DNA from: a virus
Reading direction: 5' to 3' (one strand)
IMG/VR virus record: IMGVR_UViG_3300020451_000162
Span: 1 to 24,328 of that record
Length of the DNA: 24,328 nt
Position 1 is the first letter of the stretch; each line of letters begins with the position of its first letter. Position numbers and translations under genes: made by a program. The notes under the pieces were generated by a model. It searched no databases and was not told the DNA's origin. It saw only the letters and a program-made list of their open reading frames with translations. Below are positions 14,171 through 23,531 of the stretch, piece by piece.

Positions 14171-14620
14171 TTAATTGATGCGAGTAAAACGATACAAATA
14201 AGGAGAACCCCATACGAGGTCATTCCTTTCATTGAACCCTTGATCTTTGCAATGAAGTTTTGTTCCATATAAATGAATTTCTGATTTGATGCGATTGCCT
14301 CTTTCTCCTCGGCACTTATCGCTATCTAATGTACCATGCCAGCAATTATTGCTAAACACAAACATCATATCGCACTCTTCATGTCTTGTCAAGTCTAATC
14401 GATAATTTTCCATAACAACTGTATCTTCAGAAACAATGCGTATCTTATGTTTCTTTTGACGATAAGGACTTCCAGGACCGTCTACCCTATAAAAATTCTT
14501 ACTAAAATACCAATCCTCCTCTTTTGTCCAGATTATTTCACTAGATGCAAAAGAGTGGGGATTGGATTGGGCTTGTTGTTTGTTTGACCAATGACCTAAC
14601 AGGTAGTCATCAATCGTCAT
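14171..14620 (-). CDS. cpeT: CpeT-like phycobilin lyase family protein
   Basis: The 149-residue protein has the family's opening 'L.G.wsNk.QA..nP..fa' (LLGHWSNKQQAQSNPHSFAS), then WYFSKNFYRVDGPGSPYRQ, ECDMMFVF, and the closing DLVWGSPYLYRFTRI. CpeT/CpcT proteins of cyanobacteria attach phycoerythrobilin or phycocyanobilin to phycobiliproteins, and shortened CpeT-like genes are common cyanophage auxiliary genes. Whether the phage forms are active lyases or bilin binders is open. It overlaps cp12 by 11 bases, so the two are made together from the late promoter at 14870-14877. The central cysteines (CWHGTLDSDKC) are of interest for bilin binding, but no catalytic role is shown. Confidence 0.8.
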   Translation of the reverse strand: MTIDDYLLGHWSNKQQAQSNPHSFASSEIIWTKEEDWYFSKNFYRVDGPGSPYRQKKHKIRIVSEDTVVMENYRLDLTRHEECDMMFVFSNNCWHGTLDSDKCRGERGNRIKSEIHLYGTKLHCKDQGFNERNDLVWGSPYLYRFTRIN

Positions 14621-16254: not shown

Positions 16255-19200
16255 TTAACCGAATCCTCTCAGTATATTTAATGCAGAGAAATTACTATTC
16301 TGTATCTGTGCTTGTGAGTTTCTAACTGCTCCCGCAAGTTTACCTCCTCCCATACCTCCACCAGATTTAGCAAGTAAGTTAGCAATAGCAGACTGTGCTG
16401 CAGCAACCGAAGAACGAACTGCTTGATTGTTTGCTTGAACTGCCTCTATGGTTGTTTGTACCATTTGAGACTGTCCTTCTCTCATCTGCTGCTGAGCTCT
16501 CCTTCTTTGCTCAGTAATCTTCTTCATCATATCTTGGTTTCTTTGATCCTTAACACCGTCACCATCTTGACCTGTTCTATTACTTGAGTCTCCTGCTCGT
16601 GGAGCTCCACCTAGAATACTACCAGATCCACCACCAGATCCACCTTTTCCTGCTACACTACCTCCACCATAGTTAGTATTAGTCTGTCCACCTTTTGCTT
16701 TACTATTAACACCACTGCCATGTCTGTGTTGTTGTCTCTTACTCTTTTTCCTCTTACCTGACATATCACCACCAACAAACTCTCCATCACCAAAGTCTTT
16801 ATTATCAAGGAGACCGTAGTTTATATTACCAAAACTCAATAGACTATCTCCCTCATCCATACCTTTAGGTCGAGTGAATGAGAAGGTAGATGCGTTCATC
16901 AATGCATCCTTATATGGTCCTTCAACACCTTTAGAACCTAGCATTTTATATAAACCAGGCGTGTCAAAGGACAACCCAATCATATCAGATGCTTTTTTAT
17001 CTTGTGAACTAGTTAAAGTTTTATTAGAGAATATATTTTTTCCACCAAATAGATTTTCTATGATCTGAGTCGGTGTCTTTGCTCCACCAAAGGCAGGAGA
17101 ACTAGCACCACTATCAATCAAACTTGCTTGGTTCCAAATAGTACGTGCTGTTAAAGCTCCTCCTAATGCATCTCCCTCTCCATGTTGAGCAATAATTGCT
17201 TTTTTCATCATACCCAAATCAGTTTCACCAAGAGCAGCACCACCGCTACCTGCAACCTGTCTATCAGCAAAACCTATCGTAGTAGTATTAGGTTTAGTAT
17301 GAGAACCTGGTCCTTTCTTAGTACCACCAGATGACCATGTTCCCCAACTATTATTTGCTATTTCAGCAATACCTAAACCCTTTCTTTGTCCAAACATCTC
17401 ATCAGCATATGCTCTAAGATTTGCTGGACCATTCTGTTTCTTTCTATGATCTGTAATATCAATAGCAAGTCCTCTCTTATGGAGTTTTCCTCCTTTTACT
17501 GGTTGACGACCAGATGTATCTTCACCTCTTCTGTTAGCACCATCTTTCTGCCACTTATTATTTCTAAAATTAGGATGATTATGTACAGTAAATCCTCTAT
17601 TCAATGCAGTTCTTCCTGCTCTAATTACTGCTCCTATACCACCGTTAGCAGATCTTACAATTCCATCAGGACCTCTCTTCGGACCACCACCTCCAGCACG
17701 ACCACCTTCACCGACACGCATAGATCCTTGATCTGCCCATCCAGTAGGAGCACCAGTAAGAGCACCACCGATCTGTCCACCGAGACCGCTACCACCAGTG
17801 ATAGAAGTAAGAGCACCACCAAGTTTCTGTCCGAATGACATTCCTTCAGAACCAGGTCCGAAGAATGAATTACCAATACCCTGTATCTTACCTAACCAAC
17901 CAGCAGCTTTACTACCTGGATCTAGGAATGAACTTGCAACACCACCAATACTCTTAAATATATCCCATCCTGTAGCCTTACCATCCTTACCACTACCTCC
18001 TCCACCAAAGATAGTTTGAATAGCACCACCAATAGCACCACCCTTATTACCAAATAAACCACCAATAGAACCAGCATTCTTAAGAAGTGAGTCCATAGTG
18101 ACTCTACCATTCTTATAGTTGAATCCCATTTGTGATCCTTGAAGCATTGCTCCATAAGAATCAGCATTAGCAACTGGTCCTATACCACTAGTACCACCGC
18201 CACCTCTATTCCAAATATTACTAAACCAATTACCACTTTTCTGTTTTGGAGGAACTATTGGTTTTGAGTAACTACTATTATCTTGTCCAAATCGAGATCT
18301 ACTCCCTGTCATTGGACCTTTATTACTGAAAGCGTTCTTTATACTTCCCCAGAAGAAATTCTCTTTACCTCTTGGTAATGAACCAGGAATCTCAAATCCC
18401 TGAGCATGTGCTTCCCTCATATTAGCAGATACCAATCCAGGTACTGCTCTAGTTGCAAAGTTATTGATAGGAATAACAAAGTCTTCACCTTTATTATTCT
18501 TTGATACGTACTCTAAACCATGACCAATAAAGTCTGCTTGTCCACCTTTACGACCTAATGATACAGGATAACCAGAGTCAGGACCATTAATCCATCCACC
18601 TGTTGCATATCCTGGTAATTCAGTCTTAGGAACTAACCCACCATATGCTCTCTCAAGATTACCAATCCGATCAACCATCTCACCGATGACAGTTTGACCA
18701 CCACCTTTAATATCATCCATACTAAAGGATCCTTCAAACTCCATAAGAGTTCTATCACCACCACCAGTAAACTTAGATGGTTCCATTCGGTCAGCAATAT
18801 CCTGACCATAATCATACATCTTCTTACCAACGTAAGCAGTTCCACCAACAGCAGTTGCAACAGTTGCTATCTTACCAAGACGACCCAGCTTACGCATCTT
18901 AAGTCCCTTATGGAACTTAGTCAGTCCTGTATGGAATCCTCTGAGTGCTTTACCCATTAGGGCTAAAGTTGCTCTTGGATGTCTAAGGAATATTAATGGT
19001 GCTAATATGGCTCCGAGAGACACCATGGCTTTCATAAAACCACCTAGTCTCTCAAAGAGAGTAGCATCATCCCGCAACATGTCGTACAGACCGTCTAGAA
19101 TTCGTGTTATATTTGTCCCAAGGAAAGCTTTCAGGAACCTGAATACCCTATCAAGAGTTTTTAGAGTATTCTCTATCTTCTCCCGATTCTCCTTCTTCGA

Positions 19201-19587
19201 CATCCATTCTAAAATAGGTCTGATAATAAGGAACTTAAGAAGTCCTGAGAACATGTTAAGTAATGCTTCCCAGAACTTAGGAGCACCTCTACCAACAAAA
19301 TCATTAACAAATCCAGAGAACGTATTCTTTTCTACTTTAGTATACTGTGGTTTAAATCCTTTTAATAGTTTCTTTCTTGAATCTTCTAAATTAGCGAGTT
19401 GTATATTTCTAAGATCATTTGCAATAACTGCAATACTGTTGACTACTCCACCTAAATTATTAACTGCCTGAATACTTTGACCCATAAGCTTTGACATACC
19501 AGGATCAGATGCACTAGCCGCTGCAGCAGCAGGTGACACCATCTTATACATGTTGATTTTTCTAGATTTAGGAAAAGTCGCTGGCAT
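16255..19587 (-). CDS. Tape-measure-like protein 2 with probable M15-type peptidase segment
   Basis: The 1110-residue protein starts with an Ala-rich helical segment. Residues 91-204 then align with residues 107-226 of the protein encoded just upstream (NMFSGLLKFLIIRPILEW, RILDGLYDML, LFERLGGFMKAM). Residues 460-640 are Gly-rich and hydrophobic, as in tape-measure proteins. At 703-711 it reads HKRGLAIDI, the HxxGxAxD zinc-ligand motif of M15 (VanY/D-Ala-D-Ala carboxypeptidase) enzymes. A candidate third ligand is His763, after a Trp pair. Residues 795-823 (KAIIAQHGEGDALGGALTAR) recall SleB-type cell-wall hydrolases, but weakly. The C-terminal 100 residues are Gln-rich coiled-coil. It lies between the first tape-measure-like gene and gp27, so it is a hub or tail-lumen protein that may also cut peptidoglycan. 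Confidence 0.75.
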   Translation of the reverse strand: MPATFPKSRKINMYKMVSPAAAAASASDPGMSKLMGQSIQAVNNLGGVVNSIAVIANDLRNIQLANLEDSRKKLLKGFKPQYTKVEKNTFSGFVNDFVGRGAPKFWEALLNMFSGLLKFLIIRPILEWMSKKENREKIENTLKTLDRVFRFLKAFLGTNITRILDGLYDMLRDDATLFERLGGFMKAMVSLGAILAPLIFLRHPRATLALMGKALRGFHTGLTKFHKGLKMRKLGRLGKIATVATAVGGTAYVGKKMYDYGQDIADRMEPSKFTGGGDRTLMEFEGSFSMDDIKGGGQTVIGEMVDRIGNLERAYGGLVPKTELPGYATGGWINGPDSGYPVSLGRKGGQADFIGHGLEYVSKNNKGEDFVIPINNFATRAVPGLVSANMREAHAQGFEIPGSLPRGKENFFWGSIKNAFSNKGPMTGSRSRFGQDNSSYSKPIVPPKQKSGNWFSNIWNRGGGGTSGIGPVANADSYGAMLQGSQMGFNYKNGRVTMDSLLKNAGSIGGLFGNKGGAIGGAIQTIFGGGGSGKDGKATGWDIFKSIGGVASSFLDPGSKAAGWLGKIQGIGNSFFGPGSEGMSFGQKLGGALTSITGGSGLGGQIGGALTGAPTGWADQGSMRVGEGGRAGGGGPKRGPDGIVRSANGGIGAVIRAGRTALNRGFTVHNHPNFRNNKWQKDGANRRGEDTSGRQPVKGGKLHKRGLAIDITDHRKKQNGPANLRAYADEMFGQRKGLGIAEIANNSWGTWSSGGTKKGPGSHTKPNTTTIGFADRQVAGSGGAALGETDLGMMKKAIIAQHGEGDALGGALTARTIWNQASLIDSGASSPAFGGAKTPTQIIENLFGGKNIFSNKTLTSSQDKKASDMIGLSFDTPGLYKMLGSKGVEGPYKDALMNASTFSFTRPKGMDEGDSLLSFGNINYGLLDNKDFGDGEFVGGDMSGKRKKSKRQQHRHGSGVNSKAKGGQTNTNYGGGSVAGKGGSGGGSGSILGGAPRAGDSSNRTGQDGDGVKDQRNQDMMKKITEQRRRAQQQMREGQSQMVQTTIEAVQANNQAVRSSVAAAQSAIANLLAKSGGGMGGGKLAGAVRNSQAQIQNSNFSALNILRGFG

Positions 19588-19592
19588 TTACT

Positions 19593-22500
19593 CTACCCTT
19601 GCCTCGGAACTGGTACTGGTATAGGATTATTTATCGGCACAGGCTTAGGTATCTCAATTAACTTCTCAATTAGCATTGGAACAGGGACAAATTCTAGTGC
19701 CGTTTGCATAGCATACTCCTGTGACAATTGTTTAGTGCTACCTCCACCTTTAGAAGTACTAAACATACTACTACTTCTATCAAATACACCTAAGACTCTA
19801 GGGTCAATACCTAATTCTGGTGCAAGTTCTCGGAGACCTCCTATAAAGTCACCACCAGCAACCATTCCTGAAATTGCTTTGAACATTCCACCCATACCAT
19901 TTTGACTGGCTAGGTTTTGCATAATGCCCATTACACCAAAAGGACCATCTCCAAAACTTTCCATACCAAATAATTGAGACATTCCTGGTATGTTAGCCAT
20001 GCCTGGTATTAACCCTGCTGCAACAGTTCCTAACGTTTGTCCTAGTCCACTTGATAAGAAATTACCAAACTTAGTTCCTGATAGTTTCCCACCAAGGAAA
20101 TTCATACCAGCACCTAAAGCACCTTGCACTCCTCCTTCAAGGAATCCCATTCCAATCTTACCGACTGGACTACTCATAAATTTACCAATGGCAGATCCTG
20201 CACCAAATGTACCTGGGAAGAATCCACCTAATGCACCCATAGCAGGTGCAATAGCACCCATAATATTACCTTGTGCCAAGGACATTGCTGCTTGACCAGC
20301 ATATATGAACGGTGCTGCGGCTGGGAAGACTATTGGTGCAATTTGCATTATAGTTCCCAAAATTGGGCTTGAAGCTATACTACTTACTACATTAGATACA
20401 CCTTTAACTACACCACTAACTACTTTACTAATACCTTTAAAGATCTTACCAAAGAAATATTGCTTATTGGTAAGTCTAGGTGGTATCCTTCCCATGACCT
20501 TACCACCATCCATTTTACCCCAACTAAATGGATTCCACCAACTACTACCCTTCTTCTCAGTTTTGGGTTGATCTTTTGAAGAACCAGTAGTATGCCTACC
20601 AATATTTGTATCAACAGCAGATCCTGGACTAGATTCTATAGTTTCTTTAGATCCTGATCCAAATGATCCTGCAGGGACTGATGACTCTTTATTAGGGAAT
20701 AGATCAAGGAAATCCCACCATTGATTATTAGATTTCTTCTCTGGTTGTGGAGTGATCGATGGTTGCTCATTTATTAAATTTGAAGCATTGATCCTATTCT
20801 TGGCAGCACTTCTGCCCATCTGTCTCTTATTAGGATCAGATTCGTACGTAGTTTCAACCTTTTCAATCTCTCCAGTTTCATTATCTTTCCAACCAACAAT
20901 TCTTCCACGTTTATTAGTGATTGGTGTTTTATTTTGTTGTTTTGCTCTTTCTCTTGCATCAACACCAGAAGTAGATTCACTTACATCTTTTTCTGGAGCA
21001 CCTGGATCTCCAGCACCCTTCTCTACTTTTCCTTTAGGTATAGCACTATCACCAAAGAAAGAAGATGCTACTAACTTGGCTTTGTCCCACGCATTAAGTG
21101 GGTTAATTAACCATAAAGGATTAGGGATCTCCATTCCTGGTAGACCCTTAAGCATGTGTTTACCTATCCAGTCTCGTTTAGGAAGCCATTTTGGAAGTTC
21201 TGGAATCTGCCATTTAGGTAATCCTTCATATAATCTACTAAATCCTTTCTTAACCCAGTTAATCAGATTACCTATCTGATTAAATACACCTTTAATATCT
21301 TGTTTTAATCTGTCACCAACTGCTCTGATTCCACCTGTTCCATCTCCTTTGAACATAGTGTACATCAAGTCACCGACATACTCACCAACGAGCATACCAA
21401 CTAGACTACCTACTCCTGGTATAGGAATAAGAGTTCCTAATGCACCACCAATAGCAGCACCACCACCTTTCCATAGTGCCTGATCTAATGGTTCTCCCAT
21501 CATTAATGAGAATAGAGTAGTTAAAGCAGCACCAAAGAACGGTATTCTTCCAAATACATTCTTAAATACACTCTTAACACCCTTAGTAGCACTAGGTCCT
21601 AGGAATTTTAGGGTTGTGCGGTTCATCACCTTCCCTAATCCAGGTTTAGCACCAGGTTTTATTATTTTTCCTTTAGGAGCACCACTTGGTGATAATCCAC
21701 TTGTAGGTTTAGGTGGTTTAAATGCTTGGGGATTCTTACGTGCAGCTCTTGTTACTCTCTTAAGTGCTTCACTTTCCGACATACCCATACGTCGGTACTG
21801 GTCGAATAATCTAGTTCCGTTCTTACCAAACCTTTGATTGACAGTTTTACTACCTTTAGTCCACCTTGGAGTTTTACCTGGTCTTGAGTTTCTACCTTGA
21901 TTCGGTCCTTTACCCTTGGTTCTATCTGGTTTATCCCTATACCAATCCCATCCTAATAAGCTTAGAATAGCATCCATCATACCAAATGGATTTAATAGTA
22001 ACGCCATTCCTCCCAGCCCTACTATTAATTCTCCCAGCCCTTTTAATCTTTCTCCTAACGTATTACCACTTCCAAACAAAGCAGTAAACCCATCCATTAT
22101 ATTACCAATTCTTCCACCAACAAAATTAGCAATCTTTGTAAAGACTACATGCAGTTTATGTAAAAATAATTCTAACTTCGGTTGGTTATCTGGATCTGCT
22201 AACCATTGCAAACCCTCGTACATTGCTAATTTGGTTCCCCATTCAGCCATCCATCCGAAGATGCTCCTAAACATACCAAAGATGGGATTCAATATCTTAT
22301 CTAAGAACTGTTCACCAAAACCCTTTTTCGTCTTTTTCTTAATTTTTGGTTTTGTGTTTATCCCTTTTCCCATTAGAGCGTTTCTACGCTCCATCTCATC
22401 TTCAGCTCTCTGATCCCTGTCTCTCTTATCTCTTCTTCTTTGTGCTTTCTCTGTTAATCTTTCTACTCTAGCCTTTGCTTTCGCAATCCCGCCCATGTCT

Positions 22501-22640
22501 CCAACAACACTTGCGATGCCATTGACAGTACTGCCCAAACGATTAAGTGCTAAAATTCCACTCCTACCAGCGTTGTGAGACATTTTGTCTGCACCTGCAC
22601 CACCAGGATTAATAAATTTATAGAAAGATATTTTAGCCAC
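19593..22640 (-). CDS. Tape-measure-like protein 1, GTG start
   Basis: The start is GTG (22640-22638), overlapping the preceding short frame by eight bases. The 1015 residues hold a highly charged coiled coil at 52-88 (KARVERLTEKAQRRRDKRDR). The shared paralogous domain is at 107-226 (GMFRSIFGWMAEWGTKLAM, RIGNIMDGFTALFG, LGERLKGLGELI). Hydrophobic stretches lie around 200-232 and 362-430 (GGAAIGGALGTLIPIPGVGS), and a second long Gly/Ala-rich hydrophobic region lies around 720-880. A Pro-Val tail closes the protein (PKPVPINNPIPVPVPRQG). Great length, helices, hydrophobic segments and position right after the gp26-like gene fit a tape-measure protein (gp29 role in T4). No direct similarity to T4 gp29 is claimed. 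Confidence 0.75.
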   Translation of the reverse strand: MAKISFYKFINPGGAGADKMSHNAGRSGILALNRLGSTVNGIASVVGDMGGIAKAKARVERLTEKAQRRRDKRDRDQRAEDEMERRNALMGKGINTKPKIKKKTKKGFGEQFLDKILNPIFGMFRSIFGWMAEWGTKLAMYEGLQWLADPDNQPKLELFLHKLHVVFTKIANFVGGRIGNIMDGFTALFGSGNTLGERLKGLGELIVGLGGMALLLNPFGMMDAILSLLGWDWYRDKPDRTKGKGPNQGRNSRPGKTPRWTKGSKTVNQRFGKNGTRLFDQYRRMGMSESEALKRVTRAARKNPQAFKPPKPTSGLSPSGAPKGKIIKPGAKPGLGKVMNRTTLKFLGPSATKGVKSVFKNVFGRIPFFGAALTTLFSLMMGEPLDQALWKGGGAAIGGALGTLIPIPGVGSLVGMLVGEYVGDLMYTMFKGDGTGGIRAVGDRLKQDIKGVFNQIGNLINWVKKGFSRLYEGLPKWQIPELPKWLPKRDWIGKHMLKGLPGMEIPNPLWLINPLNAWDKAKLVASSFFGDSAIPKGKVEKGAGDPGAPEKDVSESTSGVDARERAKQQNKTPITNKRGRIVGWKDNETGEIEKVETTYESDPNKRQMGRSAAKNRINASNLINEQPSITPQPEKKSNNQWWDFLDLFPNKESSVPAGSFGSGSKETIESSPGSAVDTNIGRHTTGSSKDQPKTEKKGSSWWNPFSWGKMDGGKVMGRIPPRLTNKQYFFGKIFKGISKVVSGVVKGVSNVVSSIASSPILGTIMQIAPIVFPAAAPFIYAGQAAMSLAQGNIMGAIAPAMGALGGFFPGTFGAGSAIGKFMSSPVGKIGMGFLEGGVQGALGAGMNFLGGKLSGTKFGNFLSSGLGQTLGTVAAGLIPGMANIPGMSQLFGMESFGDGPFGVMGIMQNLASQNGMGGMFKAISGMVAGGDFIGGLRELAPELGIDPRVLGVFDRSSSMFSTSKGGGSTKQLSQEYAMQTALEFVPVPMLIEKLIEIPKPVPINNPIPVPVPRQG
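19628..19635 (-). promoter_or_regulatory. Possible late promoter GATAAATA inside a coding region
   Basis: GATAAATA on the minus strand lies within the last codons of the 1015-residue gene, 41 bases before the ATG at 19587. The match is exact, but the spacing is a little longer than at the other sites and it lies in coding sequence. It may be an internal promoter for the second tape-measure-like gene or a chance match. Confidence 0.4.
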
Positions 22641-22824
22641 TTTGTGCGTTCTGCTCCTTCATTCTACGTTCTTCCTCTTTGAGAAACTCAGTTAATAAGG
22701 TCACATAGATTTCCTTTTCCCAAGGCATCAAATTATCAATATGATCAATTTGCCATTTATGATGATGCATCAAGGCAAAATTAGTATCATAATAATTCTT
22801 CAGGTTGGTATGAAGTAGGGCTAT
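22633..22824 (-). CDS. 63-codon frame with no standard start, probably the -1 frameshift extension of gp26
   Basis: The frame reads IALLHTNLKNYYDTNFALMH, continues HHKWQIDHIDNLMPWEKEIY, and ends KEEERRMKEQNAQSG. It looks like real protein: aromatic-rich, then an amphipathic charged helix. It overlaps both neighbours and fills the whole gap between gp26 and the tape-measure gene. In its frame the first codon after the gp26 stop region is ATA. No ATG, GTG or TTG precedes the conserved-looking part, and the internal ATG at codon 19 has no ribosome site. It is in the -1 frame relative to gp26, entered directly from the T TTT TTC at 22833-22827. The most likely product is a gp26-extension fusion of about 299 residues. 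Initiation at ATA is the alternative. Confidence 0.7.
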   Translation of the reverse strand: MALLHTNLKNYYDTNFALMHHHKWQIDHIDNLMPWEKEIYVTLLTEFLKEEERRMKEQNAQSG

Positions 22825-22846
22825 CCGAAAAAAGCCGCTAATCCTT
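22798..22846 (-). promoter_or_regulatory. Candidate programmed -1 ribosomal frameshift signal
   Basis: In the gp26 frame the minus strand reads GCT TTT TTC GGA TAG, so T TTT TTC (22833-22827) fits X XXY YYZ and stands six bases before the stop. Phe tRNA can re-pair on TTT TTT after slipping back one base. Upstream, AAGGA (22846-22842) is a Shine-Dalgarno-like sequence nine bases before the heptamer, the kind of stimulator seen in bacterial dnaX. Downstream, CTTCA/TGAAG (22815-22798) can form a small hairpin 11 bases after it. Confidence 0.6.
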
Positions 22847-23531
22847 CAAGCGTTACGTCACTTTCGACCTTAGTATTAGGATTTAAAACCTTAACTACAT
22901 GCTGAAGTTTTGGCATTGATTCAAAGAAATTTTGAATTTGTTTGAACTGATCCGAAGTCATCGTGTCTAAGAAATCCTTCATCTCCTGCGTTGGTATGTC
23001 TGCTGCTTCATAAACTTGCTCTGGATCAGTTATAGCACTGATACAACTAGCTGCCATATCAAATACTTGATCGACACCAGGTTCTTCTCCAGCAAAGTTC
23101 ATCTTAACAAAGGTTTCCAAAGTAGGATATTTCATTGTTAGAACAACTTCATCACTCAGTTTAAGTTCGTGCTTATGTCCTTTGGTTTTCTTGATTTTAA
23201 TATCATTCAAAGGAATTTTTACTTGAACTTCAGTTTCTTCATCATCAGGACATAACACTGTTACATCTACAGATTCACCAACAGATTTTGTTCTAATCTG
23301 AAGGAATACATACTCTATATCAAATGTTGCGAGATTCTCGACATCTGTTATATCGGTACATGCTCCAATAATGTCTTTAATAGCAGAAACCATGCTATTT
23401 TGATCACCAGTCTCAGTAGCAATTAGAAGAATTTTTTCTTCTTTTACTAAAAATGGTCTAAAATTCACCGTTCTGCCATCAGAAGGCAGTTTCATTTTAA
23501 ATTTCGGTGTGTTTAATGTAGGTAATACCAT
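22821..23531 (-). CDS. 26: gp26-like baseplate hub assembly protein
   Basis: The 236-residue protein fits the T4 gp26 baseplate family (T4 gp26 has 208 residues). The N-terminus (LPTLNTPKFKMKLPSDGRTV, FRPFLVKEEKILLIATETGD) is characteristic. It is followed by a paired-strand part (VDVTVLCPDDEETEVQVKIP) and a helical C-terminal half (DFLDTMTSDQFKQIQNFFES, LEGLAAFFG). In T4, gp26 helps to assemble the central baseplate hub. A late promoter octamer (GATAAATA) stands 23 bases upstream; no strong ribosome site is seen. The last codons contain the slippery site, so two products are predicted: gp26 alone and a C-terminally extended form. Position just before a tape-measure-like gene matches that of tail-assembly chaperones in other tailed phages. 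Confidence 0.85.
   Translation of the reverse strand: MVLPTLNTPKFKMKLPSDGRTVNFRPFLVKEEKILLIATETGDQNSMVSAIKDIIGACTDITDVENLATFDIEYVFLQIRTKSVGESVDVTVLCPDDEETEVQVKIPLNDIKIKKTKGHKHELKLSDEVVLTMKYPTLETFVKMNFAGEEPGVDQVFDMAASCISAITDPEQVYEAADIPTQEMKDFLDTMTSDQFKQIQNFFESMPKLQHVVKVLNPNTKVESDVTLEGLAAFFG

Follow-up and report, generated by a model that had tools for sequence, protein, structure and literature searches.

A probable −1 frameshift site joining gp26 to a gp51-like domain in a T4-like cyanophage fragment

Introduction

In phage lambda, two genes precede the tape measure gene, and a −1 frameshift close to the 3′ end of the first yields a short and a long chaperone, gpG and gpGT, an arrangement reportedly worked out by Xu, Hendrix and Duda in 2004. 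The locus that we analyze here probably has the same layout. The slippery heptamer and the protein families of lambda are different ones.

In a review of T4, gp26 and gp51 are listed as hub assembly chaperones, and gp51 is described as an essential protein whose function is unknown and which the finished particle lacks (PMC3004832). These T4 proteins are homologous to those of our locus, but T4 encodes them in two separate genes, 26 and 51, which lie on opposite strands and need no frameshift.

The closest description of such a device in T4-like phages is a 2022 paper by Vladimirov, Gautam and Davidson, which reportedly found frameshifting to be conserved across several groups of T4-like phages, with T4 itself relying on genes 26 and 51. 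The PRFect paper cites this work for the TAC genes of T4-like phages (PMC10885494, its reference 44, giving Virology 566:9-15, PMID 34826709), and, as cited there, some T4-like phages have one short TAC gene and one long, fused one instead of frameshifting. The paper on Pseudomonas phage Adele cites the same work for poly-T slippery sequences in the TAC-N genes of T4-like phages (PMC12846349, its reference 76). Adele belongs to the Vandenendeviridae, in which, as in our locus, a TAC-N gene is followed by a −1 frame at an invariant poly-T motif; annotators usually enter this frame as a hypothetical gene of its own. The phage families differ from that of our locus, and the motif is GTTTTT (PMC12846349).

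Here we analyze a stretch of viral DNA of 24,328 nucleotides (IMG/VR record IMGVR_UViG_3300020451_000162), hereafter the window, in which a sequence-only reading had proposed a −1 frameshift at the end of a gp26-like gene and had known of no description of one in a T4-like gp26. The latter statement fails, since the device was proposed in 2022 (Vladimirov, Gautam & Davidson). A literature search on gp26/gp51 frameshifting gave no direct match, and the 2022 paper surfaced through the references of PMC10885494. As far as that work is represented by the papers citing it, it deals with the same pair (T4 26/51), the same idea of a short and a long form, and poly-T sites, and nothing essential sets our locus apart from it. 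What the window offers is thus the correct and independent recovery, from a genome fragment not described before, of a kind of device already in print: a good further, unannotated cyanophage example and no discovery.

Results

The features of the junction all lie on the minus strand (Table 1). Read directly, the 3′ end of gp26 is GCT TTT TTC GGA TAG, in which T TTT TTC (22833-22827) stands in the X XXY YYZ phase of gp26. No stop interrupts the −1 frame between 22845 and 22636; it comprises 66 codons counted from the slip, 61 of them past the gp26 stop. Its first standard starts are a TTG at codon 20 and an ATG at codon 21, neither of which has a ribosome site. We scanned both strands of the window for open reading frames of at least 100 aa with an in-phase slippery heptamer no more than 63 nt from the stop and a −1 frame running past that stop, and only gp26 was returned. 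Because it is the sole such frame in the window and the heptamer is found in 79 of 79 non-redundant relatives (see below), the site is more than a chance occurrence.

Most of what the sequence-only reading had said about this anatomy was borne out, namely that T TTT TTC fits the −1 slippery rule in the gp26 frame, that the −1 frame is entered without a stop and lacks a standard start (there is none before codon 20), that AAGGA stands upstream, ending 8 nt before the heptamer, and that a small hairpin lies 11 bases downstream, where we find a weak 5-bp stem. Two details needed correction. The frame was identified properly but its length of 63 codons was not, as 64 residues follow AAFF; and the gene placed directly downstream is indeed there, its GTG start sharing 8 nt with the 3′ end of the −1 frame, while its tape-measure identity is no more than probable.

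Table 1. Features of the gp26–gp51 junction in the window
Feature	Position	Strand	Remarks
gp26 homologue	22821..23531	-	236 aa; ATG at 23531, TAG 22823-22821; short chaperone form (TAC-N)
Slippery heptamer T TTT TTC	22827..22833	-	read directly; X XXY YYZ phase of gp26
−1 frame without start codon	22633..22845	-	gp51 C-terminal-like domain (TAC-C); TAA 22635-22633
Predicted fusion gp26-gp51	22633..23531	-	~299 aa (TAC-NC); predicted; layout as in T4 gp51
Shine-Dalgarno-like GAAGGA	22842..22847	-	8 nt upstream of heptamer; probable stimulator, predicted
Hairpin CTTCA-8 nt-TGAAG	22798..22815	-	11 nt downstream; 5-bp stem, -3.4 kcal/mol; weak possible stimulator
Large downstream gene	19593..22640	-	1015 aa, GTG start; probable tape-measure-like, from position and size

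In profile searches, the gp26 of the window matched PF12322 T4_baseplate (E 9.6e-73) and positions 5-232 of the 282 of phrog_150 (E 6.8e-83). The −1 frame matched phrog_634 (E 7.4e-32), which is labelled "baseplate hub assembly catalyst", and also positions 228-281 of phrog_150, its last 54. A public family profile therefore spans both frames, gp26 covering the earlier positions and the −1 frame the end. The two T4 proteins differ in the same respect: gp26 (208 aa) matches phrog_150 at 14-235 of 282 and has no tail, whereas gp51 (249 aa) matches 13-280 of 282, plus phrog_634, and so consists of a gp26-like domain followed by a tail that corresponds to the −1 frame of the window. The short match of the one and the full match of the other indicate that T4 uses two genes for what the window would encode by frameshift, and Erwinia phage Gravdalen has a gp26/gp51 pair as in T4. 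Judged by these profile matches, the start-less frame is the C-terminal domain of T4 gp51 and not an unknown protein. A sequence search of the PDB with the gp26 family and T4 gp51 gave no convincing match.

This assignment settles, for hundreds of genomes of cyanophages, the identity of the 190 unannotated bases that separate gp26 from the large gene after it. In no annotated record that we examined is gp26 joined to the −1 frame; gp51 is either missing or called from an internal Met, and the internal-Met calls cut off conserved residues. A search with the gp51 frame found 582 places in 580 phage records, which leaves almost none of these phages with a second, fused copy.

We thinned 177 loci with gp26 to 79 that are at least ~7% divergent in the region of the junction. 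The heptamer is present in phase, as T TTT TTC/T/G, in 79/79 of these, and the −1 frame is open in all. In 73 it reads TTTTTTC ten bases before the stop, and the rest have TTTTTTC, TTTTTTT or TTTTTTG nearby. It is kept in relatives whose gp26 is only 27-34% identical (phiM12, P10VF, LPCS28 and KVP40), P10VF having T TTT TTG and phiM12 T TTT TTT. In the gp26 alignment, no columns vary less at synonymous positions than the two Phe columns of the heptamer (TTT in 79/79, TTC in 75/78), compared with a pooled Phe usage of 69% TTT; several other conserved Phe columns mix both codons. The codon preceding the Phe pair is AGT, TCT, GCT, GAT or AAT, ending in T 79 times versus 51 expected from codon usage. 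In a stricter set of 24 divergent sequences, this picture of the slip site was unchanged. All of these counts take related sequences as independent, and p-values derived from them serve as a guide only.

Past the gp26 stop and before the first common ATG, codons 5-19 of the −1 frame have a pN/pS of 0.115, compared to 2.6-2.7 for the same stretch in the other frames and 0.098 for the remainder of the −1 frame in its own frame. Since the ratio is low in the −1 frame only, something translates this start-less stretch in that frame. There are 38 relatives with a gp26 identity of at least 60%; in 34 of them the first 19 codons include no ATG, GTG or TTG, and codon 4 is mostly ATA, GTA, TTA or CTA. 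The lack of an early start, together with purifying selection on codons 5-19, means that an independent start cannot explain the −1 frame in this clade. We also weighed ATA at codon 4 as a non-canonical start but dismissed it, since other relatives have GTA, TTA or CTA there. The junction thus combines the features of a programmed −1 frameshift site, that is, an in-phase X XXY YYZ heptamer, an open −1 frame and coding selection.

The sequence-only reading had expected an alignment of relatives to show the heptamer and the open −1 frame together with the absence of an ATG for the short frame, and had named a clear ATG or GTG start with a ribosome site, or loss of the heptamer while the frame is kept, as evidence to the contrary. 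The first part of the expectation holds throughout the 79, but 21/79 do have an ATG, just past the gp26 stop, and yet retain the heptamer. Loss of the heptamer with retention of the frame was seen in only two distant groups, the Ackermannviridae and Vibrio phage D492.

Upstream Shine-Dalgarno-like stimulators and downstream structures are common at −1 frameshift sites, although not obligatory, and dnaX has a comparable Shine-Dalgarno-like element upstream of its slip site. Nearly all relatives have GAR GGN upstream of the heptamer. GAG is used at the Glu codon of this element in 68%, compared to 21-35% at eleven other well-conserved Glu columns of gp26, an excess that hints at selection to keep a Shine-Dalgarno-like element 8 nt upstream of the slip. 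Among the 24 divergent sequences GAG is less clearly favored (10 GAG versus 9 GAA), so this selection may be strongest in the cyanophage clades. The codon-level bias thus suggests a putative Shine-Dalgarno-like frameshift stimulator. Downstream of the heptamer, the segment from +12 to +62 nt folds more strongly, on average, than its dinucleotide-shuffled versions (mean z -1.77 for 79 sequences; upstream control 0.20), but sliding 50-nt windows give only a modest folding dip around the site. We found no single conserved pseudoknot or hairpin downstream, as the stems differ between clades of relatives. A second region of above-average folding (mean z -1.15) lies ~225 nt downstream of the heptamer in the relatives (window ~22560-22610), near the start of the tape-measure-like gene, and is possibly linked to translation start of that gene.

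We modeled the gp26 of the window with AlphaFold2 (pLDDT 85.8) and compared the model with known structures. VIA-align 2 ranked 2ob9, the tail assembly chaperone of HK97, first (82 residues, rmsd 4.0), with a Z of 7.7 that can still reflect a common structural arrangement. The next was 3fgx (Z 6.9, rmsd 4.1, 84 residues), and unrelated rows had Z of 2.4 or less. Foldseek against the PDB gave no significant match for the model, with 2ob9 at E 2.7. The modeled resemblance to the HK97 chaperone fold favors the G/GT reading, short of proof.

Discussion

We consider it very probable, on comparative sequence evidence, that the phage makes its tail assembly chaperone in two lengths, gp26 being the short one and gp26-gp51, made by a −1 slip at TTTTTTC, the long one. 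Conservation, selection, homology and fold give strong support to the frameshift and to the G/GT analogy, both of which were put forward in the sequence-only reading. Most ribosomes translating gp26 would stop at TAG and release the 236-aa TAC-N. A minority would pause with two Phe tRNAs on TTT TTC and slip one base back onto TTT TTT, aided by the upstream GAAGGA, the adjacent stop, and perhaps the downstream hairpin. These ribosomes would read 64 further codons, yielding a TAC-NC of ~299 aa with the gp51 domain at its end. If the pair acts as G and GT do in lambda, the short and long forms together may hold the tape measure encoded downstream until the tube polymerizes round it. The occurrence of the slippage, its efficiency and tape-measure binding are what we infer here. 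The interpretation of gp26/gp51 as short and long tail assembly chaperones provides a testable answer, already proposed in 2022.

Among other accounts of the junction, the one with most in its favor, although we regard it as improbable, is that gp51 is a separate short protein made by re-initiation or from an internal start and that the poly-T run is incidental. Public annotation starts gp51 at an ATG just past the stop in P-SSM2 and P-SSM4, and at an internal ATG in Syn33, S-CAM22, S-RIM2 and P-HM2. The ATG of the 21 relatives that have one (P-SSM2 type clade) is at codon 5, about two codons past the gp26 stop, and KVP40, D527 and P10VF have stop-start overlaps. Such arrangements make separate translation of gp51, besides slippage, possible in those relatives, but the synonymous sites of the heptamer are frozen also in relatives with an ATG. 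In the window and the clade closest to it, codons 5-19 are strongly selected as protein even though the first standard start comes no earlier than codon 20, and codon 4 (ATA, GTA, TTA or CTA) is not even a conserved weak start.

The run of six T could instead allow RNA polymerase to slip and produce a fused message, which we think very unlikely: six T is short for slippage of this type, and tRNA re-pairing is what the strict phase, a second codon frozen as TTC instead of TTT, and the Shine-Dalgarno-like codon bias point to. That homology carries on across the junction in another frame is also what a sequencing error or a decaying pseudogene splitting one gene would produce. We give this explanation virtually no credence, as the identical break at the same base in 79 non-redundant genomes or contigs, many of them finished isolates, refutes it. 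The preferred reading remains ribosomal slippage at the heptamer.

Relatives that lack the heptamer were observed in two settings. In the Ackermannviridae Salmonella phage SFP10 (locus L180:2283-2470) and Klebsiella phage cp18 (locus L186), gp26 is followed by a gp51-like stretch in the −1 frame (FEIDLLSYFVMCDELK...SMPWHLDLL) that has neither a start near the junction nor T TTT TTC, and that is unannotated in SFP10. In Vibrio phage D492 (locus L184:2200-2300), gp26 ends AAG TAA TGG, a stop-start overlap into a gp51-like frame.

We speculate, with considerable doubt, that the T4-like lineage holds a graded set of ways to make the long chaperone. These might be a frozen T TTT TTC with selection on Shine-Dalgarno-like codons, in the Kyanoviridae and several Straboviridae; the heptamer combined with a stop-start overlap, in KVP40 and P10VF, which could yield a third product, the gp51 domain on its own; a −1 frame with neither a start nor a recognizable heptamer, in the Ackermannviridae; and gene duplication, in T4. 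If this is true, the Ackermannviridae junction needs an undescribed recoding signal. That junction and the codon-level Shine-Dalgarno-like evidence may be additional to the 2022 work, in which tests of Shine-Dalgarno codon bias and pN/pS may or may not already be included.

The junction is set in a T4-like cyanophage tail operon composed of a tail-tube-like protein, gp26, the −1 frame and two large tape-measure-like proteins, with genes for a baseplate hub and lysozyme, for tail fibres and for a CpeT-like antenna protein as further neighbors in the window. The 1015-aa protein encoded downstream matches phrog_790 and others labelled "endolysin" by PHROGs. In phiM12, a large gene two places downstream of gp51 has been noted as similar to tape measure proteins. 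The genes at 16255-19587 and 19593-22640 stand in tandem and look tape-measure-like, both of them; their N-termini are paralogous (27% identity over ~228 residues, E 3e-10). The gene at 16255-19587 includes an M15-peptidase-like stretch (HKRGLAIDITDH), and PHROGs labels such proteins endolysin. The CpeT-like antenna protein gene (14171-14620; phrog_488, E 6e-53) lies within the tail cluster and thereby marks the phage as a cyanophage.
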